A model generated the notes under the pieces. The model searched no databases, was not told the origin of the DNA, and saw nothing but the letters and a program-made list of their open reading frames with translations. Positions 23,490 through 38,854 of a stretch of DNA of 64,000 nucleotides are shown in pieces. Position 1 is the first letter of the stretch. Each line of letters begins with the position of its first letter. Source of the DNA: Desulfobacteraceae bacterium (lineage in GTDB: Bacteria > Desulfobacterota > Desulfobacteria > Desulfobacterales > JAABSP01); NCBI GenBank assembly GCA_011390345.1, contig JAABSP010000001.1, positions 1-64,000 on the forward strand, written 5' to 3'. Both the position numbers and the translations under genes were made by a program.

Positions 23490-24230
23490 CTATCGGAGCC
23501 GCTCCCCGTGAATCCGGGGAAGCCCCGCGTCGTTGATTTTCTGAACGACTCGCTCGATGTCATAGGCGATGTATCGGACCCGGATCGAATGCTCTTCGGT
23601 CTCCCAGATTAGATATTTGGCCTTGTTGTTCCCGTCTCTGGGCTGGCCCACGCTTCCGGCGTTGATGATGTAGGCCCTATGATCGTCGAGCTGGATCAGC
23701 GGATCGGAGATCGGCTCGTAGAGGACATCTCCGTCATCCAGACAGACCCGGGAGAGTTCATGGGTGTGGCCCACAAAGCAGATGGGCGTCTCCATGGTCT
23801 CCTCCATCATCGCCAATGTCCGGATGAGGTTGACTTCCTTGACCTGGAACAGATAGGTGGACGAGGAGTTCGGGGGATAACCGTGGACGAACCGGGCTCC
23901 GTGGCGGACCAGAAACGGGGGAAGATCCCGAAGAAATGCGCGGGTTTCTGGCCGGATCATCTCGATGGTTTTCATCAAAGATGTCTTGGCAATGGGATTG
24001 AACCAGTTGAGATGGCGTGTGGGGCTTCCCACGGCACGGTCATGATTTCCCTGAACCGATGGGATTCCCCGCTCCCGAAGCAGAGAGACCGCGGCTTCCG
24101 GGTCCGGTCCATATCCGACATTGTCTCCCAGGGAGATGATCCCATCGACGACCTGCTTTTCGATATCGGAAAGAACCGCCCCAAAGGCCTCCAGGTTCGC
24201 GTGAACGTCGGAGATTACCGCTACTTTCAT
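23490..24230 (-). CDS. Metallophosphoesterase (calcineurin-like)
   Basis: A 246-residue enzyme with the metal-binding motifs VISDVHANLEA, LGDNVGYGPDP, GNHD and FVGHTH. It resembles YfcE/diadenosine tetraphosphatase-like and PP-type serine phosphatases of bacteria. The kinase gene downstream suggests it could be the opposing protein phosphatase, but a nucleotide substrate is equally possible. Start taken at 24230 behind GGGGAA; an in-frame ATG at 24266 has no ribosome binding site. Confidence 0.88.
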   Translation of the reverse strand: MKVAVISDVHANLEAFGAVLSDIEKQVVDGIISLGDNVGYGPDPEAAVSLLRERGIPSVQGNHDRAVGSPTRHLNWFNPIAKTSLMKTIEMIRPETRAFLRDLPPFLVRHGARFVHGYPPNSSSTYLFQVKEVNLIRTLAMMEETMETPICFVGHTHELSRVCLDDGDVLYEPISDPLIQLDDHRAYIINAGSVGQPRDGNNKAKYLIWETEEHSIRVRYIAYDIERVVQKINDAGLPRIHGERLR

Positions 24231-24395
24231 TTGTTCCCCGTTTCTATTCTCATCACTCTTATCCATACCATAACTGAACCCAATTCACAATGGAGGGCAG
24301 CAATGTCGATGTGAATTGCCGCGAAATCTTTCCAGCGGAATGAATATAGCCGATTTTTCTTGATCTTCCCGGCGCCCTTGGGTAAGGATGGAGGC

Positions 24396-25202
24396 ATGGA
24401 AACGAAAACAGACAGCCAAACCCAGAAACAGAAGCGCCTCCGGGTCTGCGTGCTCGCCAGCGGCAGCAAGGGCAACGCCATCTATGTCTCGGACGGGACC
24501 GCGTCGATTCTCATCGATGCGGGGCTTTCGGGAATCGAGATCGAACGGCGCATGGGGGCCCATCATCTCTGTCCGGAATCCCTCACGGCAATCCTTGTCT
24601 CCCATGAACATGCGGACCATGTCCGGGGGGTGGGGGTTCTCTCCCGGAGATACGGGCTGCCGGTCTACATGACAAAGCGGACACTTGCCGCTGCCGAGCC
24701 CCAGGTCCGAAAGCTCCATATGGCCTGTTCAATGGAGTGCGGCGCCCCTTTCAAAGTGGGTGCATTGACCATTCACCCCTTCTCCACCTCCCATGATGCA
24801 GACGATCCGGCCGGATTTACGGTGGGCCTCAACGGAACCAAAATCGGGATTGCCACCGATCTGGGGATCGCGACCGCGATGGTGAAGACCCACCTCTCCG
24901 GCTGCTCGCTTCTGGTGCTGGAGAGCAATCATGATCCTGAGATGCTGATGAACGGCCCCTATCCCTGGCATCTGAAACAGCGGATCAAGGGCCGAAAGGG
25001 GCATCTTTCCAACTTCGATACGCGGGATCTGCTGGGAAGTCTTCTCCACGACGGTCTCTCCCATGTGGTGCTAGCCCATCTGAGCGAGGAGAACAACACG
25101 CCGGAAAAGGCTTTGGCTGCGGTGGGGCCCTCCCTGAAGGATCGAAATGTCCAACTGGTTCCCGCGCTGCAAAGCCGGTGCGGAGATCTGATCCGCCTGT
25201 AG
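24396..25202 (+). CDS. Metallo-beta-lactamase-fold hydrolase (YycJ/WalJ-like)
   Basis: A 268-residue protein with the opening VCVLASGSKGNAIYVS, the zinc motif SHEHADH and an STSHDADDPAGF segment typical of the YycJ/WalJ group. Members are nuclease- or phosphodiesterase-like enzymes linked to DNA repair or cell-wall control. The ATG at 24396 follows AAGGATGGAGG. It is divergent from the phosphatase/kinase operon and single. Confidence 0.85.
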   Translation: METKTDSQTQKQKRLRVCVLASGSKGNAIYVSDGTASILIDAGLSGIEIERRMGAHHLCPESLTAILVSHEHADHVRGVGVLSRRYGLPVYMTKRTLAAAEPQVRKLHMACSMECGAPFKVGALTIHPFSTSHDADDPAGFTVGLNGTKIGIATDLGIATAMVKTHLSGCSLLVLESNHDPEMLMNGPYPWHLKQRIKGRKGHLSNFDTRDLLGSLLHDGLSHVVLAHLSEENNTPEKALAAVGPSLKDRNVQLVPALQSRCGDLIRL

Positions 25203-25287
25203 CCCCTTGTGCCGCGTTTTTCCGGCTCGGGTGAAACGGGGTTGAAACATTTTCCACCCAAAAAAAACAAAATGGAATATTTTTTTG

Positions 25288-25316
25288 TTGACGAAATCGA
25301 TTCCTCCGGATATCTA
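25288..25316 (+). promoter_or_regulatory. Possible sigma-70 promoter of the TSUP operon
   Basis: TTGACG at 25288-25293, 17-base spacer, then TATCTA at 25311-25316, which overlaps CTATAG. The -10 is weak. It leaves a leader of about 75 bases. Confidence 0.45.
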
Positions 25317-25400
25317 TAGAAAAGTTATGAGAAGGTTGCAAATTGTAGCGGCGCCCTTTTTGGGGCCAAACCAATTTTTTTCAAGATCAAGGAGGAACAG

Positions 25401-26345
25401 ATGGGAAAAAACGGCAGATACGCAATGGGGCTCTTTCTCTGCTGTACAGCGATCCTGCTGACGGCCGCCCCTGCCATCGCGCAGAACGGAATTGACAACG
25501 GGGGACATTCCTGGTGGTTCTGGCCGCTGCTGCTCTTTATCGTAACCTTTGTGATGGGCATCCTCGCGGTGCTCGGCGGCGTCGGCGGCGGCGTTCTCTT
25601 CGTGCCCATCATCAGCGGTTTCTTTCCGTTTCATCTTGATTTTGTCCGGGGCACGGGTCTTCTGGTGGCCCTCTCCGGGGCCCTTGCCGCAGGGCCCGGC
25701 CTGCTGAAGGCAAACCTGGCAAGCCTGCGCCTGGCCATTCCCGTTGCCCTGATCGCATCCTCCTGCGCGATCGTCGGGGCAATGATCGGCCTTGCCCTTC
25801 CCACCAATGTTGTGCAGATCGCGCTGGGGGCAACGATTCTGGGCATCTGCATCCTGATGCTCACCGCAAAGAAATCGACCATCCCCGATGTACCGGAGGC
25901 GGACAAACTCTCCTCCGCGCTGCGGATCTACGGCGTCTATTACGAGCCGAGCCTCAAGCAGAACATCAACTGGAAGGTGCATCGGACCCCGCTGGGGCTC
26001 TGCCTCTTCGTCATCATCGGCGTGATGGCCGGGATGTTCGGCCTCGGCGCAGGGTGGGCAAACGTACCGGTCCTGAACCTGCTCATGGGCGCGCCGTTGA
26101 AGATCAGTGTGGCCACCAGCAAATTTCTCCTCTCCATCACCGACACCTCGGCCGCCTGGATCTACATGAACAAGGGGTGCGTCATCCCCTTGATGGTGGT
26201 TCCGTCCCTCGTGGGGATCATGCTCGGCTCCTTTGTGGGGGTGCGGCTGCTGAAGGTGGCAAAGCCGACCTTCATCCGGTGGATGGTGATCGGTATTCTG
26301 GCGTTTGCGGGCCTCAAGGCCCTTCAGAAAGGGATCTTCGGATAA
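25401..26345 (+). CDS. TSUP (TauE/SafE) anion transporter
   Basis: A 314-residue inner-membrane protein. An export-like first helix (residues 7-27) is followed by the TSUP repeats: FVMGILAVLGGVGGGVLFVPII, LLVALSGALAAGPGL, and in the second half GVMAGMFGLGAGWANVPVLNLLMG and SLVGIMLGSFVGVRLLK. TSUP proteins move sulfite, sulfonates or other organic anions. A cytoplasmic loop of about 50 residues splits the repeats. AGGAGGAACAG precedes the ATG. It leads a run of co-oriented genes (DUF1634, CBS, sigma-54 activator, signalling genes). Confidence 0.9.
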   Translation: MGKNGRYAMGLFLCCTAILLTAAPAIAQNGIDNGGHSWWFWPLLLFIVTFVMGILAVLGGVGGGVLFVPIISGFFPFHLDFVRGTGLLVALSGALAAGPGLLKANLASLRLAIPVALIASSCAIVGAMIGLALPTNVVQIALGATILGICILMLTAKKSTIPDVPEADKLSSALRIYGVYYEPSLKQNINWKVHRTPLGLCLFVIIGVMAGMFGLGAGWANVPVLNLLMGAPLKISVATSKFLLSITDTSAAWIYMNKGCVIPLMVVPSLVGIMLGSFVGVRLLKVAKPTFIRWMVIGILAFAGLKALQKGIFG

Positions 26346-26428
26346 AAAAGTTCCCGCGGGAACAGACTACCGGGAAAAAGTACGATCCGAATTATAATAT
26401 CAGATTATAAAGATAATGGAGGCGTGAC

Positions 26429-26854
26429 ATGGAAAACAAGACGGATGTCTCCCTGGAGGCGAGCGAAGAGCAGTTGCTCTATGCGAAATTTCTGGAAGTC
26501 GGGATGTATGTGGGGCTGGCCATTCTGTTTATAACCTATTTTCTCTATATCTTCGGCATTATGGAGCCGTATATCCCTTTGTCGGAGGTCTCTCACTACT
26601 GGTCCCAGAATGTGGGGGACTATCTGCATGAGGCCAACATCAATGCGGGATGGTCCTGGGTGGGGATGGTCGGCTACGGCGACTTTATCAACTTCATCGG
26701 CATCGCGATCCTGGCCGGTGTCACCATCTTCTGCTATATTGCTATTATTCCGCTGCTCATCAGAACCGGAGACATGGTCTATGCCGTGATTGCCGCCCTC
26801 GAAGCGCTGGTTTTGATTCTGGCGGCCAGCGGCCTGATCACGGGCGGACACTAA
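26429..26854 (+). CDS. DUF1634-like membrane protein
   Basis: A 141-residue protein with three hydrophobic helices (about 24-48, 88-114 and 117-138). The second and third helices match the pattern of DUF1634 proteins, which are often encoded beside TSUP transporters; a partner role in that transporter is therefore likely but not shown. GGAGGCG lies before the ATG. It is 83 bases after the TSUP gene and 32 before the CBS gene. Confidence 0.7.
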   Translation: MENKTDVSLEASEEQLLYAKFLEVGMYVGLAILFITYFLYIFGIMEPYIPLSEVSHYWSQNVGDYLHEANINAGWSWVGMVGYGDFINFIGIAILAGVTIFCYIAIIPLLIRTGDMVYAVIAALEALVLILAASGLITGGH

Positions 26855-26886
26855 CCGGAACCCGGAGGACAAAGGAGGGAATAGAA

Positions 26887-27441
26887 ATGGCGCTGAAAGC
26901 AAAAGTCAAAGATCGGATGATCCCCCTGTCGAACTACTCGACGGTCTCCAAGGATGCGACACTGGAAGAGGCCGTGATGGCACTGCGGGGCTCCTTCTGC
27001 GAACTTGACAGCCAGTCCTGCACCGAAGCGGGCCACCGGACGATCCTCGCTATGGATGAGAGGGGAAATCTGGCCGGCATTCTCGATTTTGCCTCAATAC
27101 TAAGAACCCTGGTTCCCGAGGTGGCCGGAGACTGGTATCAGCGCCTCTCTTCTGCCGGGGTATCGACTGCCTTTGCCGAGGCCAATGCGGAGGGGCTCGA
27201 CGAGACCCATCTCGACCTCTACGAGCGGGTGCGGAAGAATGCTCGGGTCAAGGTGAGGGATATCATGCTCAAGGTCCGGGGGACCATCGAAGCCGATGCA
27301 AGCCTGATGGATGCGTTGAAAAAGATATTCAAAAACCGGATCTCCAAGCTGCCGGTGATGGAGAACGGAAAACTCGCGGGAGTGCTGCGGGATACGGATC
27401 TTTTTCTGGCGGTAGCTGAAATCCTTGAAGAGAAGTCCTGA
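26887..27441 (+). CDS. CBS-domain protein
   Basis: A 184-residue protein with two CBS motifs: VKDRMIPLSNYSTVSKDATLEEAV at the start and VKVRDIMLKVRGTIEADASL near residue 120, the latter ending SKLPVMENGKLAGVLRDTDLF. It should bind adenine nucleotides and may gate the adjacent transporter. AAAGGAGG precedes the ATG at 26887. The sigma-54 activator begins 9 bases after its stop, so they are cotranscribed. Confidence 0.88.
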   Translation: MALKAKVKDRMIPLSNYSTVSKDATLEEAVMALRGSFCELDSQSCTEAGHRTILAMDERGNLAGILDFASILRTLVPEVAGDWYQRLSSAGVSTAFAEANAEGLDETHLDLYERVRKNARVKVRDIMLKVRGTIEADASLMDALKKIFKNRISKLPVMENGKLAGVLRDTDLFLAVAEILEEKS

Positions 27442-27450
27442 TCGCATCGA

Positions 27451-28896
27451 GTGGAACTGTCCAATACCCCACAAATCCGAGATCTATTTGATCATCCCGT
27501 TCTCCTGAATGAACTCATTGATGAGATTCCCACGGGGATCGTTCTGCTGGACGATTCCCGCCGGGTTCTCCGGATGAACCGGTTTCTGGCGGCCCTCACC
27601 GGATTTCCGACCGAGGAGACCCTTCGATACCGGATGCCCTGCCGGCAGGTCCTCAGAAGCCGTCTCTGCGTGACGGGGTGTCCGGCAAAAGGGATGACCG
27701 CCCATTCGGAGCCCGTCACCATTGAAAGCGATCTGATCGACCGGAACCGGCAGCTCATTCCGGTTCGGATCACCCTCTCTCCCCTCCGGGACGACCGGGG
27801 GGAGCTGGCCGGATTTCTGGAGTCGGTGGAGGATCTGCGGCCCATGCGCCACTCCCATGCCCGCCAGGAGGGGGGATACCGGCTTTCGGGGATGATCGGC
27901 AAGAGTCCGCCCATGGAGAAGGTCTTCCGCCTGATTCCGGCCATCGCACAGAGCGACTCCTCGGTGCTGATCACCGGGGAGACCGGAACCGGCAAGGATA
28001 TGGCTGCAGAGGCGATCCATATGGCCTCCCCCCGATCCAAAGGGACCTTTGTGAAGGTCAACTGCGGAGCACTGCCCGAGACCCTGCTGGAGTCGGAACT
28101 CTTCGGCCATCGGAAGGGGGCCTTTACGGGCGCGATCGAGAACAAGCCGGGCCGTTTCCGGATGGCCCATAACGGAACCCTATTTCTTACGGAGATCGGA
28201 GATCTGCCCCTGCCCCTTCAGGTGAAGCTGCTCACCTTTCTGGACGACCATGTGGTCTATCCCCTGGGGAGCCCCAAGGGGTTTGAGGCCGATGTCCGGG
28301 TGGTGGCCGGCACCCATCGGGATCTGGCCGGAATGGTCCGGGAGGGGCGATTCCGGGAGGATCTTCTCTTCCGGCTCAATGTGGTCAGGATTCATCTGCC
28401 GCCCCTGCGTGAGCGGGATGAGGACGTCCGTCTGCTGCTCGATCATTTCCTTAACACCTTTGTCGAACGGTTCGGCAAGCCCATCAGCGGCTTCTCCGCG
28501 GATGTCCTTGCCCTGTTGAGCCGCTATCCGTACCCCGGAAACGTCCGGGAACTGAGAAATATCGTGGAATATGCCGTCAATGTCTGCAATGAGGCCAAGA
28601 TCCGGCCAAAGGATCTTCCGGCCTACCTCTCGGAGCCGGCCGGAACCGAGTCATTTTTTTCCGGCCCATCGAGTCCCCTGGAAACCGGCCAGACCGATCC
28701 CTCCGGAGATCCCTCCCCGGAACCTGGCGGCCCCATCCCTGAAGAGGGAAAGACCTGGACCGAAGTCGAAAGAGAGATGATCATGGACGCGCTGATCCGG
28801 GCCAAGGGAAAACGGGGTCAGGCCGCAGAGATCCTTGGTTGGGGCCGCAGCACCCTCTGGCGGAAGATGAAGCAGCACGGACTGGACGGCACATGA
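27451..28896 (+). CDS. Sigma-54 activator with Cys-containing PAS domain and altered Walker B
   Basis: A 481-residue enhancer-binding protein starting with GTG at 27451. An N-terminal PAS domain (residues about 18-130) carries cysteines 64, 73 and 77 (C-x8-C-x3-C), which could bind a cluster, heme or metal. The AAA+ domain has Walker A GETGTGKD (176-183) and the sigma-54 contact loop GAFTGA (223-228). The Walker B stretch reads LFLTEIG: Thr247 replaces the normally invariant Asp. The C-terminal Fis-type helix-turn-helix is RGQAAEILGWGRSTLWRKM. No receiver domain is present, so control is by PAS. The stop overlaps ATGA sequence before the NifX-like gene. Confidence 0.92.
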   Translation: MELSNTPQIRDLFDHPVLLNELIDEIPTGIVLLDDSRRVLRMNRFLAALTGFPTEETLRYRMPCRQVLRSRLCVTGCPAKGMTAHSEPVTIESDLIDRNRQLIPVRITLSPLRDDRGELAGFLESVEDLRPMRHSHARQEGGYRLSGMIGKSPPMEKVFRLIPAIAQSDSSVLITGETGTGKDMAAEAIHMASPRSKGTFVKVNCGALPETLLESELFGHRKGAFTGAIENKPGRFRMAHNGTLFLTEIGDLPLPLQVKLLTFLDDHVVYPLGSPKGFEADVRVVAGTHRDLAGMVREGRFREDLLFRLNVVRIHLPPLRERDEDVRLLLDHFLNTFVERFGKPISGFSADVLALLSRYPYPGNVRELRNIVEYAVNVCNEAKIRPKDLPAYLSEPAGTESFFSGPSSPLETGQTDPSGDPSPEPGGPIPEEGKTWTEVEREMIMDALIRAKGKRGQAAEILGWGRSTLWRKMKQHGLDGT

Positions 28897-28909
28897 AACA
28901 AGACGGCAC

Positions 28910-29248
28910 ATGAAAAAGGTTTTGATTCCGGTATACGGCGCGGAGATCGCGCCCCGCTTCGATCTGGCCACCGAAGTCCTCCTCTTTTTCAAATCCCGGG
29001 AAAAAGAGGGGTGGGACGAGCGGATTCTGGTGGTCTCCCACTCTTCGGCCGAGGAACTCTGCCGGCTGATCCTGAAAGAGGATGTGGAGATGGTGATCTG
29101 CGGCGGGATCGAAGATGAGTATTACCAGTATCTGAAATGGAAAGGCGTTGCGGTGATCGATTCGGTGGCAGGCCCTTGGGATCGGATTCCCCAGCGATTG
29201 ACCGCAGAAGATCTTACGGCCGGAGCTGTTCTATATGACCCCCTCTGA
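28910..29248 (+). CDS. NifX/dinitrogenase cofactor-like domain protein
   Basis: A 112-residue stand-alone protein with the fold pattern of the NifX/NifB C-terminal (dinitrogenase FeMo-cofactor) family: VLIPVYGAEIAPRFDLATEV, a central VEMVICGGIEDEYYQYLKWKGVAVID and the end GAVLYD. Such small proteins bind metal clusters or act as redox-linked partners in anaerobes. There is no Shine-Dalgarno, but the gene is only 13 bases after the activator and probably coupled. A 14-base sequence, GACGGCACATGAAA, occurs twice at the junction. Confidence 0.7.
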   Translation: MKKVLIPVYGAEIAPRFDLATEVLLFFKSREKEGWDERILVVSHSSAEELCRLILKEDVEMVICGGIEDEYYQYLKWKGVAVIDSVAGPWDRIPQRLTAEDLTAGAVLYDPL

Positions 29249-29264
29249 GGATTGGGAGGCGCCT

Positions 29265-31007
29265 ATGATGACCCGAGCCAAAAGCTGGCTGTACACCACT
29301 ATCCGCCATTTTCTGTCGATCCACAAGATTAGCGACGCGTCCTCGCGATATATCATCCTTCGGCGGAATATCACCCTGATCATGCTCTTTGTAACCATCG
29401 TCCCCCTGACGGTCATGGGGGCCATCAACCATTTCCAGTACCAGGAGAGCCTCAAAAACGAGGTGATCGAGCCCCTCCGGGTGCTGCTCAACAAGACCCG
29501 CCACTCCTTTCATCTCTTTTTAGAGGAGCGGCTCTCCATGATCCGATTCATCTCCTCGGCCTACACCTTTGAACAGCTTTCGGACCCGGCGACTCTGAAC
29601 CGGCTCTATCGGGTCCTGAAGAACGAGTTCGAGGGGTTTGTGGATATCGGCCTCATCAACGGCAAGGGGCTTCAGATCGGATATGCCGGCCCCTACTCCC
29701 TCGAGAACAAGGATTATTCCCAGCAGGCCTGGTTCCAGGAGGTTCTCATCCGGGACTCCTTCATCAGCGAAGTCTTCATGGGGTATGGGAAAGTTCCCCA
29801 TATCGCGATCGCGGTGCAGCGGGTAGAGCATGATGGGACTTACTGGATGCTGCGGGCCACCATCGATACGAACAAGTTCGACGAGATCATCTCCACCATG
29901 GAGATCGATGCCAAGAGCGACGCCTTCATCGTCAACCGGGAGGGGCTCTTTCAGACCCATTCCCGCTATTACGGGGATGTTCTGGGAAAAAGCCCCTTCG
30001 AGATCCTGCAGGGAGCCTATGAGACCACCATCGACGAGACCGTCGATCCCCTGGGCCGGGAGGTGATCGTCGCATACGCAAGCTTTGAAAAGCCCAATTT
30101 CTCCCTGGTGGTGGTCAAGCCCAAGGACATCATCTTGAGAACCTGGATCACCCTGCAGGGGGAGATGTTCTTCATCTTCTTCGCCAGCGTCTTTGTGATC
30201 ATCATGATAGTCATCAAGCTTTCGGATGTGATGGTCATGAACATCAAGGAGGCCGAGGAGCGGCGGGAGAACGCGATCCACGAGCTGGAGCAGAACCAGA
30301 AACTCTCGGCCATCGGCCGGCTGGCGGCCGGGGTGGCCCACGAGATCAACAATCCCCTGGCCATCATCAATGAAAAGGCCGGCCTGATGAAGGATCTGGT
30401 TACCTATTCTCCGGATTTTGAAAAGAAGCAGCGGTTTCTGGATCTGCTCACCAGCATCATCAATTCCGTGGGCCGGTGCAAGACCATCACCCATCGGCTG
30501 CTGGGGTTTGCCCGGCACAAGGAGCCGAGGCTCGAGCCGCTGGACATCAACCATCTGGTGCAGGAGGTGGTCGGCTTTGTCAACAAGGAAATGGTCTACC
30601 GGAACATCGATCTGCGCACCGAATTTGCAGAAGATCTTCCCCGGGTTCTTGCGGATCAGGGGCAGGTACAGCAGGTCTTTTTGAACATTTTAAGCAATGC
30701 CCTGTCCGCTGTTCACGACAACGGCAGGGTCTCCATCACCAGTTGGGAGGAGGACAAGCGGAATGTCGGCGTCTCCATCCAGGACAACGGCTCCGGGATG
30801 ACCGAGAAGACGATTCAGCGGATTTTCGACCCCTTCTTCACCACCAAGAAGGCCGGCGGAACCGGACTGGGCCTTTTCATCACCTACGGGATCGTCAAGA
30901 AGCTGGGCGGAGACATCAAGGTCCACAGCCGGGAGAACGAAGGCTCCACCTTTACGATCTATCTGCCCAAAGTCAACGGGGAAACGGATAAGGAGAAAGC
31001 GGAATGA
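29265..31007 (+). CDS. Sensor histidine kinase with dCache-like periplasmic domain
   Basis: A 580-residue membrane kinase. TM1 (about residues 36-57) and TM2 (about 290-316) enclose a periplasmic domain of about 230 residues of the double-Cache type (FVDIGLINGKGLQIGYAGPY, KDYSQQAWFQEVL). HisKA has His359 in GVAHEINNPLAII, and the ATPase domain shows NILSNALSA, DNGSGM and GGTGLGLFI. It probably detects a small molecule outside. The start at 29265 follows GGGAGG; a longer start at 29235 overlaps the preceding gene. Its stop overlaps the receiver gene. Confidence 0.92.
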   Translation: MMTRAKSWLYTTIRHFLSIHKISDASSRYIILRRNITLIMLFVTIVPLTVMGAINHFQYQESLKNEVIEPLRVLLNKTRHSFHLFLEERLSMIRFISSAYTFEQLSDPATLNRLYRVLKNEFEGFVDIGLINGKGLQIGYAGPYSLENKDYSQQAWFQEVLIRDSFISEVFMGYGKVPHIAIAVQRVEHDGTYWMLRATIDTNKFDEIISTMEIDAKSDAFIVNREGLFQTHSRYYGDVLGKSPFEILQGAYETTIDETVDPLGREVIVAYASFEKPNFSLVVVKPKDIILRTWITLQGEMFFIFFASVFVIIMIVIKLSDVMVMNIKEAEERRENAIHELEQNQKLSAIGRLAAGVAHEINNPLAIINEKAGLMKDLVTYSPDFEKKQRFLDLLTSIINSVGRCKTITHRLLGFARHKEPRLEPLDINHLVQEVVGFVNKEMVYRNIDLRTEFAEDLPRVLADQGQVQQVFLNILSNALSAVHDNGRVSITSWEEDKRNVGVSIQDNGSGMTEKTIQRIFDPFFTTKKAGGTGLGLFITYGIVKKLGGDIKVHSRENEGSTFTIYLPKVNGETDKEKAE

Positions 31008-31366
31008 AATCGATCAGCGTAATGCTTGTGGACGATGAGAAGGAGTTTGTCGATACCCTTGCCGAACGGCTGGAACTGCGCGGGATCGGGGTCCGGGTGG
31101 CCAACGACGGCGAGACAGCGCTGCCCATGATCGACGACGATCCGCCGGATCTGGTGCTTCTGGACATGATGATGCCCGGTATCGGCGGCTTGGAGACGCT
31201 GCGCCGGATCAGGGATCGCAACCCGGAGGTAGCGGTGATCCTGCTCACCGGCAGAGGGTCCGAACAGGAGGGGGAAGAAGGAATACAGCAGGGGGCTGCC
31301 GATTATATGATGAAACCGATTGAGATCGACCAGCTCATGGAGAAGCTGGAGAAGTATTCCGGGTGA
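31004..31366 (+). CDS. Single-domain response regulator
   Basis: A 120-residue CheY-like receiver: acidic VDDE (9-12), phospho-acceptor Asp54 in LVLLDMMMP, Thr82 and Lys104. There is no output domain. It overlaps the kinase stop (ATGA) and is therefore its direct partner. It is closely related in sequence to the receivers at 32381 and 33684, so these probably arose by duplication. Confidence 0.93.
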   Translation: MKSISVMLVDDEKEFVDTLAERLELRGIGVRVANDGETALPMIDDDPPDLVLLDMMMPGIGGLETLRRIRDRNPEVAVILLTGRGSEQEGEEGIQQGAADYMMKPIEIDQLMEKLEKYSG

Positions 31367-31487
31367 TTCAAAATGTTTCATTATAGACTACGTAGGATGT
31401 TTTATATTGATTCATTATGTTCCTGTTTCTCCATCGGGTCGCGGCTCAATAACGGGAGAAGCTTTGCTGTCCGCGGCTTTTCATGAC

Positions 31488-31504
31488 TTGGCATCATGGT
31501 TGCA
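31488..31504 (+). promoter_or_regulatory. Sigma-54 (-24/-12) promoter
   Basis: TTGGCATCATGGTTGCA fits the consensus TTGGCAC-N5-TTGCA with the required GG-N10-GC spacing. It lies 85 bases before the small-protein gene at 31589. A direct repeat TTCATTAT (31377-31384 and 31411-31418) about 70-110 bases upstream is a candidate activator site. The sigma-54 activator at 27451 is the obvious regulator. Confidence 0.8.
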
Positions 31505-31588
31505 TATGAATTGGAGCAGGTGAAAACAGAAAATGGGAAGAAGGGATAATCGCCTTCCCTTAAACAACCCCCTGAAAGGAGTGCAACC

Positions 31589-31780
31589 ATGAGAAAACTG
31601 ATGGAGAAGATCGAAAAGACCTTTATGGCGGCCGCGTTTGCCGAGGCCGATTGTCATGAGGCCGCGCTGGAGATCCTCGATACCCCGGCGACCCGAAGGA
31701 GCGCCCGCAGCCTCGATGATTTCCTGCGAGATGTGGGGCTGGATGAAGTCCGCTACAGCTATGTGCTGGCTCGGGTCTAA
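31589..31780 (+). CDS. Small protein with AAxFAEA module
   Basis: A 63-residue cytoplasmic protein of unknown function behind AAGGAG. Residues 12-30 read FMAAAFAEADCHEAALEIL, which closely matches the C-terminal tails of the pseudo-receiver and the receiver encoded downstream. It is the first gene of the sigma-54 operon. An adaptor or competitor role for the tailed receivers is an inference. Confidence 0.75.
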   Translation: MRKLMEKIEKTFMAAAFAEADCHEAALEILDTPATRRSARSLDDFLRDVGLDEVRYSYVLARV

Positions 31781-31822
31781 CCTTTAGGACCGCAGGTGAA
31801 TGGTTCGCAGGTGAATGGTTCT

Positions 31823-32338
31823 ATGGGAATCAACCTTCTGATCGTCGATACGGACATCGGCTTCCGCCAGAGCCTGTGCCGGCATCTGGTGACGGCCCCT
31901 TTTCAGGTCTTTGAGTCCGAAGGGCGCTGGGGATTGAAAAAACTCATCAAAAAGCATAACATCGATGTGGTCCTTCTCAGCCTCAGCCAACTCCGGGAGG
32001 ATGGTCTGGCCCTGCTCAAACGGATCAAACGGTTTCGCCCCCAGGTGGAGGTGATCCTGATCAACGGAACCGGGCAGCTCTCCCTGTCGATTGAGGGAAT
32101 GAAACTGGGGGCTTTCGACGACATTCTGGTCCCCTTTGACCTTAACCGGCTGATGGCGCGGATCAAGGATGCGCATCAGCGGAAACAGGAGAAGGCCGGA
32201 AGGTCGATCTTTGAGCAGTATCAGGATGCGATGACGGCCGCGGCCTTTGCCGAGGCCGGGGAGCCGGATATGGCCCTGGAGATGTTGGAAAAGAAAGCGG
32301 CTTCGGCTCAAGAATGCAAAGGCCCGAAAGAGGAGTGA
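31823..32338 (+). CDS. Pseudo-receiver with AAxFAEA tail
   Basis: A 171-residue protein whose first 120 residues align over their length with the receiver at 32381 but lack the chemistry. The phospho-acceptor Asp is Ser53 (VVLLSLSQLREDG), the signalling Thr is Asn81 and the conserved Lys is Val103 (ILVPFD). The tail carries TAAAFAEAGEPDMALEML (about 138-155). It probably acts as an unphosphorylatable binding domain. The start at 31823 has AGGTGA 10 bases upstream. A 15-base tandem repeat (CGCAGGTGAATGGTT) precedes it, and an in-frame ATG at 31796 lies too close to its own site. Confidence 0.82.
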   Translation: MGINLLIVDTDIGFRQSLCRHLVTAPFQVFESEGRWGLKKLIKKHNIDVVLLSLSQLREDGLALLKRIKRFRPQVEVILINGTGQLSLSIEGMKLGAFDDILVPFDLNRLMARIKDAHQRKQEKAGRSIFEQYQDAMTAAAFAEAGEPDMALEMLEKKAASAQECKGPKEE

Positions 32339-32380
32339 TCCATAAAAGAAGCGATCAACGATCGGAAGGAGAGATGACCT

Positions 32381-32857
32381 ATGGATGAGATCAAAGTCCT
32401 GTTGGTGGATGATGAGGAGGAGTTCGTAAAGACTTTGGCCGAGCGCATCGAGATGCGCAACCTCGGTTCGGACATCGCCTACAACGGCGAGCAGGCCCTG
32501 AAGGTGGTCAAGGACGAGGTCCCCGATGTCATGATTCTGGATCTGAAGATGCCCGGCATCGACGGCATGGAGGTGCTGCGCCGGGTCAAGAAGGCCTACC
32601 CGGATGTTCAGGTGATCATGCTCACGGGCCACGGCTCCGACAAAGACGAAAATGAGGCCCGTCAGCTCGGCGCCTATGATTACCTCCAGAAGCCGGCCGA
32701 TATCGACAAGATCGTTTCGACCATCAAGAATGCCTATAAGAACAAGGTGCAGAAGTCGATCATGGCTGCCACCTTTGCCGAGGCCGGAGAGTTCGACACG
32801 GCCCGGGAGATGATGAAGGAGAACGGAGAGAAGAAGAAGTCCGTCAAGTCGGAATGA
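32381..32857 (+). CDS. Response regulator with AAxFAEA tail
   Basis: A 158-residue receiver with all catalytic residues: Asp10 and Asp11, Asp54 (VMILDLKMPG), Thr82 and Lys104. After the receiver (about 122 residues) the tail reads SIMAATFAEAGEFDTAREMM (126-145), followed by a Lys/Glu-rich end. There is no DNA-binding or enzymatic domain, so output is probably through the tail. GGAGAG lies upstream of the ATG. Confidence 0.92.
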   Translation: MDEIKVLLVDDEEEFVKTLAERIEMRNLGSDIAYNGEQALKVVKDEVPDVMILDLKMPGIDGMEVLRRVKKAYPDVQVIMLTGHGSDKDENEARQLGAYDYLQKPADIDKIVSTIKNAYKNKVQKSIMAATFAEAGEFDTAREMMKENGEKKKSVKSE

Positions 32858-32948
32858 CTTCGAAGCGATATTGTGGACGCGGCCCTGACCCCCGGGTCCA
32901 TACGTGCCTGCGTCAACCTTCATCTTTCCCTTGCAAAGGAGGACCTAT

Positions 32949-33590
32949 ATGGAATGCAAGCCCGATATCCTCGGCTGGAACGGCCTTCAATTCTTCGGTG
33001 CGATCTCCGCATCCATCTCCCATGAGATCAAAAACGTGATCGCCATCATCAATGAAAATGCTGGTCTGCTGGAGGATTACTGTTTCATGGCCGAGAAGGG
33101 CAAGCCCATTGATCCGGCCCGGATGAAGGCCATCAGCGAAAAGGTGGCAAAGCAGGTCAAACGAGGAGACGGGATCATCCGGATGATGAACCGCTTTGCC
33201 CACAGCGTGGACGAACCGGTCCGTTCGGTGGATCTTGCAGAGCTGATCGCGCTGGTCGTTGCCCTGAACGGCCGGTTTGCCGCGAACAAGAATGTCAAAG
33301 TCGATGTCAGACCCGCAGAAGCGCCGCTTTTGCTCTCCACCAATCCATTCTACCTGGAGAATCTTCTTTTTCTGTGCCTCCAGTATGCAATGGAGAGTGC
33401 CGGGGGCGGCGGGGTCCTCACCCTGACCCCGGAAAAGAGTGCCGAGGGCTTTTCCATCACCATAACCGGACTGGCCGATTTTCCCGAACCTTTTCCGACC
33501 CGGCCGGTGGAGGCGCTTCTGGAGGCGCTGGATGCAACCCTTACCGCTGACCCGGCATCAAAGTCCCTGACCCTTGCTTTGAAACGATAA
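32949..33590 (+). CDS. Histidine kinase-like protein with degenerate ATPase domain
   Basis: A 213-residue soluble protein. The N-terminal half is a HisKA-like helical hairpin with His25 in ASISHEIKNVIAIINENAG, related in sequence to the kinase at 29265 (AHEINNPLAIINEKAG). The C-terminal half follows the HATPase layout but lacks the N box and both glycine boxes (only GGGGVLTLTPE and LADFPEPF remain). ATP binding is unlikely. It may act as a histidine phosphotransferase or dimeric scaffold between receivers, similar in principle to Spo0B or ChpT (inference). AGGAGG precedes the ATG at 32949. Confidence 0.8.
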   Translation: MECKPDILGWNGLQFFGAISASISHEIKNVIAIINENAGLLEDYCFMAEKGKPIDPARMKAISEKVAKQVKRGDGIIRMMNRFAHSVDEPVRSVDLAELIALVVALNGRFAANKNVKVDVRPAEAPLLLSTNPFYLENLLFLCLQYAMESAGGGGVLTLTPEKSAEGFSITITGLADFPEPFPTRPVEALLEALDATLTADPASKSLTLALKR

Positions 33591-33683
33591 TGTGCAGATA
33601 GAAATTGCTTTTTCCGGGAAAATGGTTTATCATTAAAAGATGAAGATGATTCAACTTTTAAATATGACTGAAAGGAGGGGAAG

Positions 33684-34112
33684 ATGACAGAAAAAGTACT
33701 GCTGGTGGATGATGAGATCGATTTTGTCGATACCCTTGCCGAACGGATGAAAACCCGGGGAATGAACGTCTCCACCTCCACTTCTGCAAAAGAGGCCATC
33801 AAGCGGGTTGAGGAAGAAGGTTTCGACGCGGTGGTGCTGGACCTGATGATGCCGGAGATGGATGGTCTGGAGGCCCTGGCCGCGATGAAGGAGAAGAACC
33901 CCGATCTTCAGGTGATCCTGCTCACCGGCTACGGCTCTGTGGAGAAGGGGGTCGAGGCCATGAAGCTGGGTGCGATGGATTTTCTGGAGAAGCCGATCGA
34001 TACCGCAAGTCTAGCCGAAAGAATCCAGAAGGCACAGGCCAACCGGATGATCCTTGTGGAGAAGAAGACCGAGGACAAGATCCGGAAGATCATTACAGGG
34101 AAGGGCTGGTAA
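33684..34112 (+). CDS. Single-domain response regulator
   Basis: A 142-residue receiver with VDDE (8-11), Asp53 in VVLDLMMPEMDG, the Thr in ILLTGYGS and the Lys in LEKPID. A short Lys/Glu-rich tail follows without the AAxFAEA motif. A strong AAAGGAGGGG site precedes the ATG, and 93 bases separate it from the kinase-like gene, so it might also have its own start. It is the last gene of the block. Confidence 0.92.
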   Translation: MTEKVLLVDDEIDFVDTLAERMKTRGMNVSTSTSAKEAIKRVEEEGFDAVVLDLMMPEMDGLEALAAMKEKNPDLQVILLTGYGSVEKGVEAMKLGAMDFLEKPIDTASLAERIQKAQANRMILVEKKTEDKIRKIITGKGW

Positions 34113-34154
34113 TTCCTGTTTATATCGTTGGATCTATAGTTTCCTCTCCAAATC

Positions 34155-34201
34155 GCCTCATCATGGGTCCCCTTTCGGATCGATTCTCTTCATGATGAGG
34201 C
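34155..34201 (+). terminator. Hairpin after the signalling locus
   Basis: Perfect 11-base arms GCCTCATCATG (34155-34165) and CATGATGAGGC (34191-34201), followed by GTTTTCCCTTT. Terminator-like with an imperfect T run. Confidence 0.6.
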
Positions 34202-34307
34202 GTTTTCCCTTTCTATGCGTCCGCAGATCCCGAACCATTTCAGCCATTGCAGAAGAACCTGAAAACCGGCAAACCCTTTTTTGACCCGATATTCAAAAGA
34301 AATTATG

Positions 34308-34335
34308 TTGAAATCGTTTCATTCCCTGTTATAAG
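34308..34335 (+). promoter_or_regulatory. Sigma-70 promoter of the outer-membrane protein gene
   Basis: TTGAAA (34308-34313), 16-base spacer, TATAAG (34330-34335). It lies about 65 bases upstream of the ATG at 34403. Confidence 0.65.
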
Positions 34336-34402
34336 ATATATTGAAGGCGGAAATCTTTTTCTGCTGACGGAGAATGAACTCTTATTAAAGGAGAAAAGAA
34401 GA

Positions 34403-34963
34403 ATGAAACGATTTTTGGGATTTCTGAAGGCGGGAACTTTGCTTGCGGCGCTGTTGATGGCGGCGGCCGGAACCGGATATGCCCAGATGGAAGCCCGTAC
34501 CTTGGACATGACCGGCATGGTCGGCTCCTTTTTCTTTGACAATGACGATGTCTATGATGATGACAACCCCATCTATACCTTCGGCCTCGGCTATCTCTTT
34601 ACCCGGAATCTGGGCGCGGAGTTTACGGCCAACTTTGTGGACACCAAGAAATTGGAGAACGGGGAGCCCTACGACAACCTCGTGGAGTTCATCTACAAAA
34701 TCGATCTCCTCTACCATTTCATGCCGGACAACCAGTGGGTTCCCTATGTGGCCCTCGGCGGCGGCGCAACCACCATCAATGAGGCAAGAGAAGACAAGAC
34801 CGGCGGCCTTGCAGATGCGGGCTTCGGCGTGAAGTACTTCTTTTCCGAAGGATTCGCCTTCCGGATCGATGCCCGGTACAACTATGCCTTTGACGATGAG
34901 AGCCACAACTTCAATGTCTCTGCCGGCCTCACCTATGTTTTGGGAGTTCCCTTCATGAAGTAG
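34403..34963 (+). CDS. Outer-membrane beta-barrel protein (OmpA-like)
   Basis: A 186-residue protein with a signal peptide (about residues 1-28, ending GYAQ), then alternating amphipathic beta strands with aromatic ends (VGSFFFDNDD, YTFGLGYLFTRNLGAEFTANF, WVPYVALGGGATTI, GFGVKYFFSEGFAFRIDARYNY). The final strand ends with Phe-Met-Lys. It fits a small 8-stranded barrel of the OMP_b-brl group. Function in the outer membrane is unknown. GGAG precedes the ATG. Confidence 0.85.
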   Translation: MKRFLGFLKAGTLLAALLMAAAGTGYAQMEARTLDMTGMVGSFFFDNDDVYDDDNPIYTFGLGYLFTRNLGAEFTANFVDTKKLENGEPYDNLVEFIYKIDLLYHFMPDNQWVPYVALGGGATTINEAREDKTGGLADAGFGVKYFFSEGFAFRIDARYNYAFDDESHNFNVSAGLTYVLGVPFMK

Positions 34964-35000
34964 AGAGAGAAACCTTTTTTCCCGGGGATTTCGGCCGCTT

Positions 35001-36494
35001 CTACCGTTGTCTGATGGAAAGGCTCCTGGAAAAGAAGAGCTGAGGACGATGGTTTCGGATGGTCCGGGCAAACTCTTCTGTCCGGAAGGCCATAGGATCG
35101 TCCGAATCGGCTTTTCCGCTTGAAAACGAGCCGATTTCCCCGGGAAAGAGACTCTCTCCGCCCCCTGCACCCTGTCGGTGAAGCCGATGGCCATCCACAT
35201 GGATCACCGCATAATCCTCTCCTGAATCCGTCGCTTTTTCCATGATCGCTGTGATATTTTCAGCCGTGGGCGGAATCACCTGCGTCACTTCTCCGAAGGC
35301 TTGGGCCGGCCCCAGGGGCTCCAAAACGGGCTGAGCCGGCATCTCATCCGGAAGCAGGGCGGAACTGTCCGGCTCGTCCGGTTGGGGGCTGAGCAGAAGC
35401 ACCCGGGTGGAGGATTTGGACCGGGATGGATCTCCCATTCCCCGGGGAATTCTCAGGGGCAGGTGGCGCCGGGCCCGGACCGATTTGGCCCCCTGCAGCA
35501 GATACCGCTCTCCGTCATGGAGCAGCTCCCAGGGTAAAGAGAGAAGAAGAAACGCGGCCCGATTGGCCTCCTGCTGCTGAACCACCGAAGAGCCCCGCAC
35601 CAGTTGCGCGTCGATAAAGACCGTCAACCGGCGTTCCTGTCCCTCTTCAGCCGAAAGCCAGCTCGACAGCACCTCGGAACAACTGTATTTCGGCATGACA
35701 TTCAAATAGAGTTCCCGGCCCCACTGCGGCAGGCGCTCTTCGACCTCCTGGGCTCTCTGTTTCTCGGCACCGCTGGGCCAGAGGTAATACTGATCAAGAT
35801 ACCACTTCAGCTCTTCGATCTCCGGGTAGCCGATGGGCGCGGTAAAGAGATAGGGCTCCCGGCATTCGACTCCGATCCTGCGGCTCTTTGCCGAGATATA
35901 GCTGAGTTCAGCGGTCGCGGCCGCATAGATTTTTCCTCCCCGTTTTTCGGTATAGGGGGAGCGCATCTCCAGAAGAAGCTCCTCTGCCGGGACCGCCGGA
36001 ATTGCCTCCACCAATGCAGTTGATTCTGGGGACGACTCCTGAAGCTCCGGCGCAAGGTTTTGCTGGGGCCGCTCTCCTGCGCTTCTGCTAAGGGCTGAAA
36101 TGATCTGGGGCAGGGCTCTTTTGATGCCGGCAGCCCCATTGATGACCCGGATGGCCAGTGGTTTCTGAACAAAGAGCCATTTCAGTGCCCCCAGTTCCAC
36201 CCCCTCCCGCAGCAGCGGAATGATGACAAAGTCCTCGGCACACTGCTCCTTGACCTGGGAGGCATGTCGGGTCTCCTCGGCAACCCATGCGGAATTGAAG
36301 GCATCGGGGCTGACCACCACGATGAATGCCCTGGCGTTTTCGAGGGTCTTGAAGATCCGTTCGATGGGAATGTTTCTTCCCCGCAGCTCCCGGGAATCGA
36401 CCAGGCTGTACATCCCCTTGGCTTCAAGGCTCTGGCGGAGCTTATCGACAAAATCGCTGTCCCGGCTGCTGTGAGAGATAAAGATCGTGCTCAT
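35001..36494 (-). CDS. TIR domain protein with CHAT-like C-terminus, 3' end damaged
   Basis: A 497-residue protein. Residues 1-135 are a TIR domain (STIFISHSSRDSDFVDKL, VVVSPDAFNSAWVAEE with the glutamate pair 73-74 near the NADase position). A variable linker follows. From about residue 300 the pattern is that of CHAT caspase-like domains: LPWELLHDGERYLL, RVLLLSPQPDEPD, YAVIHVDGHR (His at the catalytic place, Gly replaced by Arg). The expected Cys block never appears. The reading frame seems shifted near the end: in another frame LLFQEPFHQTT resembles the Cys region with Phe in place of Cys. The product may be a remnant of an abortive-infection effector. AAGGA precedes the ATG at 36494. Confidence 0.75.
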   Translation of the reverse strand: MSTIFISHSSRDSDFVDKLRQSLEAKGMYSLVDSRELRGRNIPIERIFKTLENARAFIVVVSPDAFNSAWVAEETRHASQVKEQCAEDFVIIPLLREGVELGALKWLFVQKPLAIRVINGAAGIKRALPQIISALSRSAGERPQQNLAPELQESSPESTALVEAIPAVPAEELLLEMRSPYTEKRGGKIYAAATAELSYISAKSRRIGVECREPYLFTAPIGYPEIEELKWYLDQYYLWPSGAEKQRAQEVEERLPQWGRELYLNVMPKYSCSEVLSSWLSAEEGQERRLTVFIDAQLVRGSSVVQQQEANRAAFLLLSLPWELLHDGERYLLQGAKSVRARRHLPLRIPRGMGDPSRSKSSTRVLLLSPQPDEPDSSALLPDEMPAQPVLEPLGPAQAFGEVTQVIPPTAENITAIMEKATDSGEDYAVIHVDGHRLHRQGAGGGESLFPGEIGSFSSGKADSDDPMAFRTEEFARTIRNHRPQLFFSRSLSIRQR

Positions 36495-36584
36495 TATGGA
36501 AATCCTTAAAGGCCGTTTTAATTCTGACTCTCTTTCATACCCTATTTTTCCGCGCAAGGCAACATCCCCTTTCCCGGGGATTGT

Positions 36585-37523
36585 TTATTTCCGGAAGATC
36601 TGGGTTCCCGAGTCTCCTTCCACGGATCCGGTCAGATCGGTAACAGAGCCGATCGCGGCTCTGCCCTGGCTGTGGCGGACAAAACTTATGGCCGCGGCGA
36701 CCTTGGGGCCCATCGAGCCTGCCGGGAAATGGCCTGCAGCCAGATGCGCTTCAGCTTCTTCAGGTGTCAGTTGGGTCAGCAGCCGCTCTTCCGGCCCGCC
36801 GTAATCGAGCATCGCACCGGCCACATCGGTGAGAATCACAAATAGATCGACCCCCACCTCCTGAGCCAGCTTCGCGCTGGCAAGATCCTTGTCGATCACC
36901 GCATCCACCCCGGCAAAGGTTCTCCCCTCCCGGATCACCGGAATCCCGCCGCCCCCGCAGCAGATCACAATGAAATCCTGACGGATAAGGGCTTTGATCT
37001 CCCGCTTCTCCACGATGGTGACGGGTACAGGGGAGGCCACCACCCGGCGGAAGCCTTTGGGCGTTTTGATTGTGGGATAGGGGAGGGGTGCAGCCTCGGC
37101 CTCGGTAAAGGCCGGCCCGATCGGCTTTGTGGGGGCTGAAAAGGCCGGATCATTTTCATTCACCACCACATAGCTGATAAGGCTGACGATCCGCTGATGC
37201 TCATGGATGCCCAAAGCCATCAGTTCACTGTCCAGGGTCGATTCGATCATATAGCCGATCTGTCCCTGGGTCTGGGCCACCAGGATCTCCAAGGGCAGGG
37301 GCAAAAGGTTCGGGCAGCACTCCTGCTGGAGCATAAGGTTTCCTACCTGAGGGCCGTTGCCGTGGGTGATGATGATCCTGAAGCGCCGGGAAAGCCTGGC
37401 TATCTCGCGGATCGGCCTCCGCAGGTTTTCGAACTGCTCCTCGATGCTCCCTTTCTCCCCTTTTCGGATCAGGGCATTCCCCCCGAGGGCCACCAGCAGA
37501 ACGGGTCTGCCATCCCTTTTCAT
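36585..37523 (-). CDS. arcC: Carbamate kinase
   Basis: A 312-residue amino-acid kinase family enzyme with the typical LLVALGGNALIRKGEKG start, THGNGPQVGNLMLQQE, VICCGGGGIPVI, VDAVIDKDLASAKLA and the C-terminal GSMGPKVAAAISFV. It interconverts carbamoyl phosphate plus ADP with carbamate plus ATP. Its ATG overlaps the stop of the upstream gene (ATGA), with GGGAGAG as ribosome binding site, so the two are translationally coupled. No arginine deiminase or ornithine transcarbamylase is nearby, so it is not a standard arc operon. Confidence 0.93.
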   Translation of the reverse strand: MKRDGRPVLLVALGGNALIRKGEKGSIEEQFENLRRPIREIARLSRRFRIIITHGNGPQVGNLMLQQECCPNLLPLPLEILVAQTQGQIGYMIESTLDSELMALGIHEHQRIVSLISYVVVNENDPAFSAPTKPIGPAFTEAEAAPLPYPTIKTPKGFRRVVASPVPVTIVEKREIKALIRQDFIVICCGGGGIPVIREGRTFAGVDAVIDKDLASAKLAQEVGVDLFVILTDVAGAMLDYGGPEERLLTQLTPEEAEAHLAAGHFPAGSMGPKVAAAISFVRHSQGRAAIGSVTDLTGSVEGDSGTQIFRK

Positions 37524-38854
37524 GAAGTCTCTCCCAGAAGACCTCCCAACCGCTTCTGCAGGATCGAAGAAAGGAGGGGCTCGCTGTGATCCTTGTATTC
37601 GTAGCGCACCCGCTGGGAGGGAATGCGGATATCGAGAAGTGCGGAGAGGTTGATGGGGGTGGCAAAGAGAACCAGGTCGCACGCTGCGGCATTGATGGTG
37701 GCCTCCAGGTCCTTGGCCTGTTTTGTGTTGTAGCCCATTGCCGGCAGCACCGGGCCGATGTGAGAATATTTCTCATAGATGTTTCGGATCGCGCCGGCCG
37801 CGCAGGATCTCGGATCGACGATCTCTGCCGCGCCATATTTTCGTGCGGCAATGATTCCTGCACCGTAGGCCATCTCTCCGTGCGTCAGGGTGGGGCCGTC
37901 CTCGACCACCATGACCCGCTTTCCCCGGATCGCCTCCGGATCATCGACCAGAATGGCCGACTCGGCCATGACGATCCTGGCTTTTGGCGCATGCGCTTCG
38001 ATGTTGGCCTTGACCTGACTCACCCCCTCGGGCGGCGCGGAATCGACCTTGTTGATGATCGCGATATCGGCCATGATCATATTGGTCTCGCCGGGATAGT
38101 AGAGGAGTTCATGGCCCGGCCGGTGAGGATCGAAGACCACGATGTGAAGATCGGGGGTGTAGAAGGGCGTGTCGTTGTTGCCGCCGTCCCAGACGATCAG
38201 ATCGGCCTCCTTTTCGGCCGATTTGAGAATCTTTTCGTAATCGATGCCGGCATAGACCGTGATACCTTTTTCCACCAGGGACTCATACTCTTCCCTCTCT
38301 TCAATGGTACACTGGTGCCGGTCGAAATCGGCAAATTCCGAGAAGCGCTGCACCTCCTGGGCCAGAAGATCGCCGTAGGGCATGGGATGGCGGATCACCA
38401 CCGGACTTTTCCCCATCCCCTTGATAATCCGGCAGACCTCCCTGGTGGTCTGGGATTTTCCGCATCCGGTTCTCACCGCGCAGACCGCGACAAGGGGCTT
38501 TTTCGGCTTCAGCATGGTATATGTGGCCCCCAGCAGAATGAAATCCGCGCCGTTGGCCATCGCGATGGCGCCCTGGTGCATCACATGGGTGTGGGTAACA
38601 TCGCTGTAGGAGAAGGCGACCAGATCGACCGAATGCTTTCGGATAAGATCGGCCAGCTCCTCCTCGGCATAGATGGAGATGCCTTGGGGATATCCATCTC
38701 CGGCCAGTTGGGGAGGGTAGCAGCGTCCTTCGATATCCGGGATCTGGGCTGCGGTGAACCCAACCACCCGGTACCGGGGATTGCCCCGGAAGTAGATGTT
38801 GAAATTGTGGAAATCCCGGCCGGCCGCGCCCATGATGAGCACCTTTTCGATCAT
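37520..38854 (-). CDS. COG2403 GTPase (cyclic 2,3-diphosphoglycerate synthetase-like)
   Basis: A 444-residue cytoplasmic protein. A Rossmann-like N-terminus (VLIMGAAGRDFHNFNIYF) is followed by a P-loop near residue 130 (VCAVRTGCGKSQTTRE), and the family's WDGGNNDTPF and NKVD segments. Homologues are annotated as cyclic 2,3-diphosphoglycerate synthetases, but in non-thermophilic bacteria they usually sit beside carbamate kinase or other amino-acid genes and the reaction is not established. AAAGGGGAG precedes the ATG. Confidence 0.85.
   Translation of the reverse strand: MIEKVLIMGAAGRDFHNFNIYFRGNPRYRVVGFTAAQIPDIEGRCYPPQLAGDGYPQGISIYAEEELADLIRKHSVDLVAFSYSDVTHTHVMHQGAIAMANGADFILLGATYTMLKPKKPLVAVCAVRTGCGKSQTTREVCRIIKGMGKSPVVIRHPMPYGDLLAQEVQRFSEFADFDRHQCTIEEREEYESLVEKGITVYAGIDYEKILKSAEKEADLIVWDGGNNDTPFYTPDLHIVVFDPHRPGHELLYYPGETNMIMADIAIINKVDSAPPEGVSQVKANIEAHAPKARIVMAESAILVDDPEAIRGKRVMVVEDGPTLTHGEMAYGAGIIAARKYGAAEIVDPRSCAAGAIRNIYEKYSHIGPVLPAMGYNTKQAKDLEATINAAACDLVLFATPINLSALLDIRIPSQRVRYEYKDHSEPLLSSILQKRLGGLLGETS

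Follow-up and report, generated by a model that had tools for sequence, protein, structure and literature searches.

The window analysed here, a stretch of 64,000 nucleotides from a Desulfobacteraceae bacterium, carries a gene cluster in which three adjacent genes of the same strand, separated by gaps of 15 and 42 bases, encode proteins that share a segment called the module below (Table 1). These carriers, a small protein, a pseudo-receiver and a receiver, are accompanied by kinases, module-free receivers and a sigma-54 activator, with a transporter gene and a CBS gene at the upstream end of the cluster, which corresponds to the type A layout described below. No DASS match was obtained at positions 24001-38000 of the window, the TauE gene being present in the cluster instead, and no Lon gene was seen in this cluster.

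Table 1. Genes and sequence features of the module-bearing cluster, in window coordinates
Feature	Position	Strand	Evidence and remarks
TauE/SafE-family transporter, 314 aa	25401..26345	+	Pfam TauE 5.6e-36; whole-genome TauE match at the same place; upstream end of cluster
CBS-domain protein, 263 aa	26650..27441	+	Pfam CBS 5.2e-14
PAS and sigma-54 activator, 481 aa	27451..28896	+	Pfam Sigma54_activat 7.1e-65, HTH_8, PAS
112-aa protein	28910..29248	+	Weak Nitro_FeMo-Co match, below cut-off; relatives have a similar gene at the same position
dCache sensor histidine kinase, 590 aa	29235..31007	+	Pfam dCache_1, HisKA, HATPase_c
Single-domain receiver without module	31004..31366	+	Pfam Response_reg 2e-29
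Sigma-54-like promoter, TGGCAT-N5-TTGCA	31489..31504	+	One mismatch to TGGCAYRN4TTGCW; 85 bases 5' of the small gene
Small protein, 63 aa, one module and conserved C-terminal tail	31589..31780	+	ORF
Module copy in small protein	31598..31690	+	Relatives-only HMM; Cys at the position after the turn
Pseudo-receiver, 180 aa, module near C-terminus	31796..32338	+	Pfam Response_reg 1.6e-13; pREC class, in which active-site residues are lost
Module copy in pseudo-receiver	32207..32299	+	Relatives-only HMM
Receiver, 158 aa, module at C-terminus, phosphorylation site Asp54 intact	32381..32857	+	Pfam Response_reg 2.5e-29
Module copy in receiver	32735..32827	+	Relatives-only HMM; first helix modelled as continuous with alpha-5
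Half histidine kinase, 228 aa	32904..33590	+	Weak HisKA match; no HATPase match found
Receiver without module, 142 aa	33684..34112	+	Pfam Response_reg 5.8e-30

An HMM built from 43 segments of relatives, from which the three window rows had been taken out, matched exactly three sites among the 1365 six-frame segments of the window, with E-values of 2.8e-15, 5.4e-14 and 2.7e-12. The next-best match in the window scored 8.7 bits, and the best over 20 rounds of shuffled segments scored 5.5 bits; by this model and the shuffles, chance or low complexity was ruled out as the source of the likeness among the three sites. The observation of the sequence-only reading that three neighbouring proteins carry the same segment is therefore confirmed, as the relatives-only HMM finds exactly these three. 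A three-row profile, with which a search is circular for the three window sites themselves, found no fourth copy in the genome of the organism (4.8 Mb) at E up to 10. As well, another contig of this genome (C85, L001 7758-15571) holds a second two-component cluster, which comprises a kinase, receivers without the module, a DASS-like transporter recognized by eye, a further kinase and an NtrC-type regulator.

When 172 instances from four protein classes were aligned, leaving out those with E above 1e-4 or cut by the end of an ORF, the module proved to be gapless over 31 residues. Numbered from its Phe, the most conserved positions are Ala-3 (94%), Phe0 (91%), Ala+1 (100%), Glu+2 (94%), Ala+3 (84%), Gly+4 (82%) and Ala+9 (96%). 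An AlphaFold2 model of a two-copy small protein (20 aligned sequences, mean pLDDT 79) shows helices at residues 2-19 and 23-29 and again at 41-57 and 61-67, with the tight turn of the hairpin at A-G-E, while the packing between the hairpins is not resolved in this monomer model (pTM 0.39). In the monomer model of the window receiver, alpha-5 runs without interruption into the module as a helix spanning residues 108-134, which is followed by a turn and a helix at 138-156, the tail (residues 131-158) being modelled with low confidence, at pLDDT of about 50-64. The segment had earlier been described as a single helix of about 19 residues; alignment and AlphaFold2 supersede this short reading with a conserved unit of 31 residues, modelled as helix-turn-helix. 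Nor does the module stand alone in the small protein, as had been supposed, since a conserved C-terminal tail around F-L-x2-V-G-L-x2-V is also present there. No Pfam family covers the module in the 46 segments scanned, and a PDB sequence search with the module profile returned four matches (best E 0.69), none of which was meaningful.

Loci from other genomes were fetched together with the window locus (78 plus the window, 79 in all, with 171 motif ORFs at the search threshold), and 76 of them are counted below as motif loci, after removal of the TPR proteins L062 and L087 and of L063, which had no match at the second threshold. Every one of these loci was chosen for holding the motif, some share a genome, and 16 Desulfovibrionaceae-like loci are not counted among them. 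The module occurs in small proteins (one to five copies), as a tail in receivers, near the C-terminus in pseudo-receivers, inserted or N-terminal in degenerate Usp-like proteins, and in small membrane proteins of 113-127 aa, in which one or more hydrophobic stretches come after it (L061, L073, L098 and L100; L209 and L212 are similar by eye). Each window protein has a single copy and many small proteins have two. A protein encoded at L210 5616-6329 carries five tandem copies spaced by 32, 32, 32 and 39 residues (the fourth read from positions, with one false pattern match omitted) as well as the usual conserved tail. At L070 5549-7069, the small-protein gene is continuous with a transposase-like open frame before it, no stop codon lying between them, and the resulting frame of 501 aa is probably due to an insertion upstream of the gene.

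The active-site states of the carriers differ between classes. Aligned to the window receiver, all 33 proteins of the receiver class keep Asp10, Asp11, Asp54, Thr82 and Lys104. In the pseudo-receiver class, the aspartate at the Asp54 position is found in 5 of 17 and the lysine at the Lys104 position in none of the 17, even though the domain of the window pseudo-receiver is still recognized by Pfam. The nucleotide loop G-2x-G-9x-G(S/T) was found in 0 of the 43 module-bearing Usp-class proteins; of three tandem Usp proteins nearby that lack the module, two have it when its spacing is loosened to 8-10. A Cys directly after the turn occurs in small-protein copies only, where the small-protein class of the alignment is defined by a length limit of 140 aa (16 of 79, versus 0 of 93 other copies).

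The small protein was first proposed to be a free competitor, which would titrate the tails of both receiver-type proteins. It does hold a whole copy of the module and is co-encoded with both tailed proteins, and the Cys peculiar to its copies means that its binding could be switched separately. However, the many two-copy small proteins, the five-copy one and the conserved C-terminal tail speak against a simple competitor, and L061, a natural fusion in which a small protein, a second module and a Usp domain form one chain, joins the small protein to its Usp partner in a manner that suits a bridge. These multi-copy, tailed and Usp-fused forms suggest a bridge or scaffold rather than a free competitor, and we regard the competitor as improbable.

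The module is conserved far beyond the genes of the window. It was found in 26 of 194 genomes of relatives, including the organism's own, in 63 of 389 genomes of a class sample, and in 53 of 395 genomes of a phylum sample with 24 family labels, although one of these 53 (G593), probably a false positive, is counted on the strength of the TPR protein L087. The module is present in 28 of 79 genomes of a Desulfovibrionaceae-like family. Among the genomes of 22 loci from other groups, two contain it, one of them probably as a long TPR-type protein, and a contig scan with a receiver profile detected it in 7 of 80 loci, most of which are plain receivers because of the nature of the query. Outside the phylum, the module was detected in 47 of 148 genomes of a second one, labelled Nitrospirota (the phylum of G854), and in 7 of 170 genomes of Pseudomonadota (the phylum of a Rhizobium). 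The Nitrospirota search also gave matches inside long frames of 870-897 aa (G1004:C95:23838-23915, G965:C87:53250-53297 and G1000:C44:41531-41575). Neither random occurrence nor absence from orthologues, the two outcomes set beforehand as refuting a common module, was found when both were checked. In the phylum sample, dsrA is present in 50 of the 53 module genomes compared with 140 of 342 module-free ones (Fisher p 1.5e-14, a value that ignores shared ancestry). Since dsrA-positive genomes without the module are common, the module is not required for sulfur metabolism.

The register of the module matches the TPR consensus, and the module, as modelled, may share with TPR a helix-turn-helix form; in some small proteins its copies stand in tandem about 32-38 residues apart. 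It might be argued that the modules are nothing more than single TPR repeats of the ordinary kind, or alpha-hairpins that arose by convergence, without a common partner, and that their co-location reflects duplication of neighbouring genes. Besides the register, this explanation can draw on weak matches of the module profile to the genuine TPR proteins L062 and L087 and on the superposition, at low Z, of a single module hairpin on those of TPR proteins (1.7-2.0 Å for 36-37 residues). Among the curated TPR models, TPR_4 matched 6 of the 46 segments (best E 0.0056) and TPR_8 and TPR_6 one each, none above cut-off among the matches listed; the top Foldseek rows for the module model were TPR arrays at E 0.58 or worse; and VIA-align listed TPR and rubrerythrin chains with Z at most 3.5 overall, a listing that is silent on other folds. 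Comparison of the module and TPR profiles gave a probability of 38.5% with two motif-picked TPR units left out, the earlier value of 92% being biased because two of the seven TPR units had been found through the motif itself. Plain TPR membership, marginal in Pfam, Foldseek, profile comparison and VIA-align, was rejected. Unlike TPR, the module mostly occurs once per protein, and it has a shorter second helix, extra invariant residues and marginal Pfam matches. The conservation of Glu+2, Ala+1 and Thr/Ala-1 exceeds the TPR pattern, and duplication of one gene cannot yield carriers of unrelated folds. Moreover, TPR proteins are generally common in Bacillota, whereas the module was found in 0 of 169 genomes of that phylum (the phylum of a Paenibacillus). 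We consider an origin as ordinary repeats or convergent hairpins unlikely.

Three gene layouts recur within the phylum. Type A (L037) consists of a PAS sigma-54 activator, a small Nitro_FeMo-Co-like gene, a dCache kinase, a receiver, a half kinase, the module-bearing small protein, pseudo-receiver and receiver, and then CBS with DASS and/or TauE. Type B (L049) has a receiver-Lon protease, a module-bearing small protein, Usp and Usp-like protein, a CitMHS-TrkA_C transporter, a kinase and a sigma-54 regulator, while type C combines a module-bearing small protein, Usp and membrane protein with TauE, a tandem Usp, a kinase and a sigma-54 regulator. In type A relatives, a 142-aa protein without a Pfam match lies between the TauE and CBS genes (L070 9601-10026). 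Upstream of the first motif gene, a sigma-54-like site was found within 300 bases in 49 of 76 clusters versus 0.1% of mononucleotide shuffles, the site being defined as TGGCAYRN4TTGCW with at most one mismatch and with G, G, T and G fixed at four core positions.

A DASS, CitMHS or TauE/SafE gene is present in 65 of the 76 motif loci (DASS in 11, CitMHS in 18 and TauE in 42, some loci having two), with the nearest transporter at most 5.8 kb from a motif ORF; the other 11 have none of the three in the stretch of sequence covered. The TauE genes, found in 42 of 76 loci, would be expected by chance at that distance in about 2.4% of loci, given a density of about 2.1 per Mb in 20 such genomes. In the Pseudomonadota locus L227, a module pair adjoins a SulP permease (Pfam 7e-100). 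Given that the module travels with four transporter families and that a membrane-anchored form exists, it could be thought to bind the transporter directly, one protein at a time, without the regulators assembling on one another. Nevertheless, a common binding site is hard to imagine because the transporters belong to unrelated folds, and a shared adaptor would be simpler, so that direct binding appears to us very unlikely.

The Lon-like gene with a receiver, which occurs in 26 of the 76 motif loci, brings in a further explanation, namely that the module marks regulators for the receiver-Lon protease, either as a recognition tag or as an adaptor, so that they are broken down in response to a signal. 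A three-component system with receiver-Lon has been proposed in Desulfovibrio vulgaris (PMC3333781), where it controls UspA-type and membrane genes. On the other hand, only one of the 33 receiver-type loci has a Lon gene in the stretch covered, the window cluster belongs to those in which none was seen, and the module is often internal or duplicated instead of terminal. A degradation tag is, in our judgement, quite unlikely.

Several of these neighbourhoods resemble published clusters. For 26 sulfate reducers, a cluster has been described in which a DASS sulfate transporter is accompanied by two-component systems and CBS proteins (PMC11887813). This cluster of Desulfosarcina variabilis and other sulfate reducers is like the type A loci in having DASS, several two-component systems, cache-domain kinases and CBS, whereas TauE adjoins the cluster in the window; the main text of the paper, so far as it was searched, mentions neither a small protein nor a shared module, Usp or TauE in this context. 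Type B is comparable to DVU3298-DVU3305 of Desulfovibrio vulgaris Hildenborough, in which receiver-Lon, a kinase and a sigma-54 regulator control UspA-type and membrane genes and a putative anion transporter (PMC3333781, PMC10102598; compared by description only). Chlorate and molybdate phenotypes have been reported for this receiver-Lon system and for a cluster of Usp, exporter and 133-aa membrane protein (PMC10102598). The latter, the molybdate-responsive DVU0539-DVU0545, is similar by description only to type C (L098, L100 and L212), with two Usp, a transporter, a 133-aa protein with a transmembrane helix, a kinase and a sigma-54 regulator, but its transporter is assigned to a putative sulfate exporter family and that of type C to TauE/SafE, a difference that is likewise one of description only (PMC10102598). 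According to previous studies, sulfate reducers are rich in TSUP (TauE) proteins (PMC5840216), and the sigma-54 regulators of DVU operons have been listed (PMC4641369). The DASS, Lon three-component and exporter clusters are thus already published. The shared module was not found in the literature search: the searched portions of PMC11887813, PMC3333781, PMC10102598, PMC5840216 and PMC4641369 make no mention of it, and abstract-level searches, whether by module sequence or on the topics of Usp, small proteins and sulfate transporters, turned up no report of it.

The docking or oligomerisation element envisaged by the sequence-only reading holds in part. The module sits on several folds, is kept in orthologues and occurs in adjacent genes, with at least two motif ORFs in 57 of the 76 motif loci, as would be expected of a docking or assembly element, but it is confined neither to three proteins nor to two-component proteins, being carried also by degenerate Usp and membrane-anchored proteins. 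A docking role is plausible from the sequences, and we give about an even chance to the interpretation that the portable 31-residue hairpin is an assembly tag, by which one regulatory complex is built near the transporter.

Starting from the observed module, carriers, gene neighbours, active-site states and promoter pattern, such an assembly could work as follows. The hairpin would be appended to or inserted in unrelated folds, namely a phosphorylatable receiver, a dead receiver, a degenerate Usp and a two-helix membrane protein, in addition to a small linker, and the operons with hairpin-tagged proteins would control sulfate-type anion transporters. By stacking through their hairpins, the tagged proteins may form one regulatory complex near the transporter. 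The dCache kinase, which possibly senses the external anion, would phosphorylate the receiver at Asp54, and alpha-5, as modelled, might pass the resulting change straight into the attached hairpin. This change would alter the packing of the receiver hairpin with those of the pseudo-receiver and the small protein, and the altered packing may in turn tune the TauE transporter, the kinase-sigma-54 circuit, or both. The small protein, with its one to five hairpins and conserved tail, would presumably act as the bridge, and the membrane-anchored form could bring the assembly to the membrane.

More broadly, the 31-residue hairpin could be a common "zip code" for transporter-control complexes in sulfur-respiring bacteria of several phyla. 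Proteins as different as receivers and dead receivers, degenerate Usp, small linkers and membrane anchors would use it to gather around sulfate-type anion transporters of no fewer than four unrelated families (DASS, CitMHS, TauE and SulP), and anion uptake or export would thereby come under phosphorylation-gated, post-translational control. We put this forward tentatively, as a generalization whose chances fall somewhat short of even. Sulfate entry is the step with which a major respiration begins, and its control in sulfate reducers is the wider question here. A tag that can be searched for, and that links receivers, Usp-like proteins and small proteins to the neighbourhoods of DASS, CitMHS, TauE and SulP, would bring together clusters described separately. 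It also points out the probable participants in a single regulatory complex and brings the question within reach of simple experiments on binding and deletion in laboratory sulfate reducers.

Finally, two further genes lie on the reverse strand on either side of the window cluster. One, at 22111-23451, encodes a protein that combines a Ser/Thr protein kinase domain with an Lcl_C domain. The other, at 35001-36557 and just downstream of the cluster, is possibly a defence gene; its product of 518 aa has a TIR domain at the N-terminus (Pfam TIR_2 2.1e-18, with a weak ThsB_TIR match).
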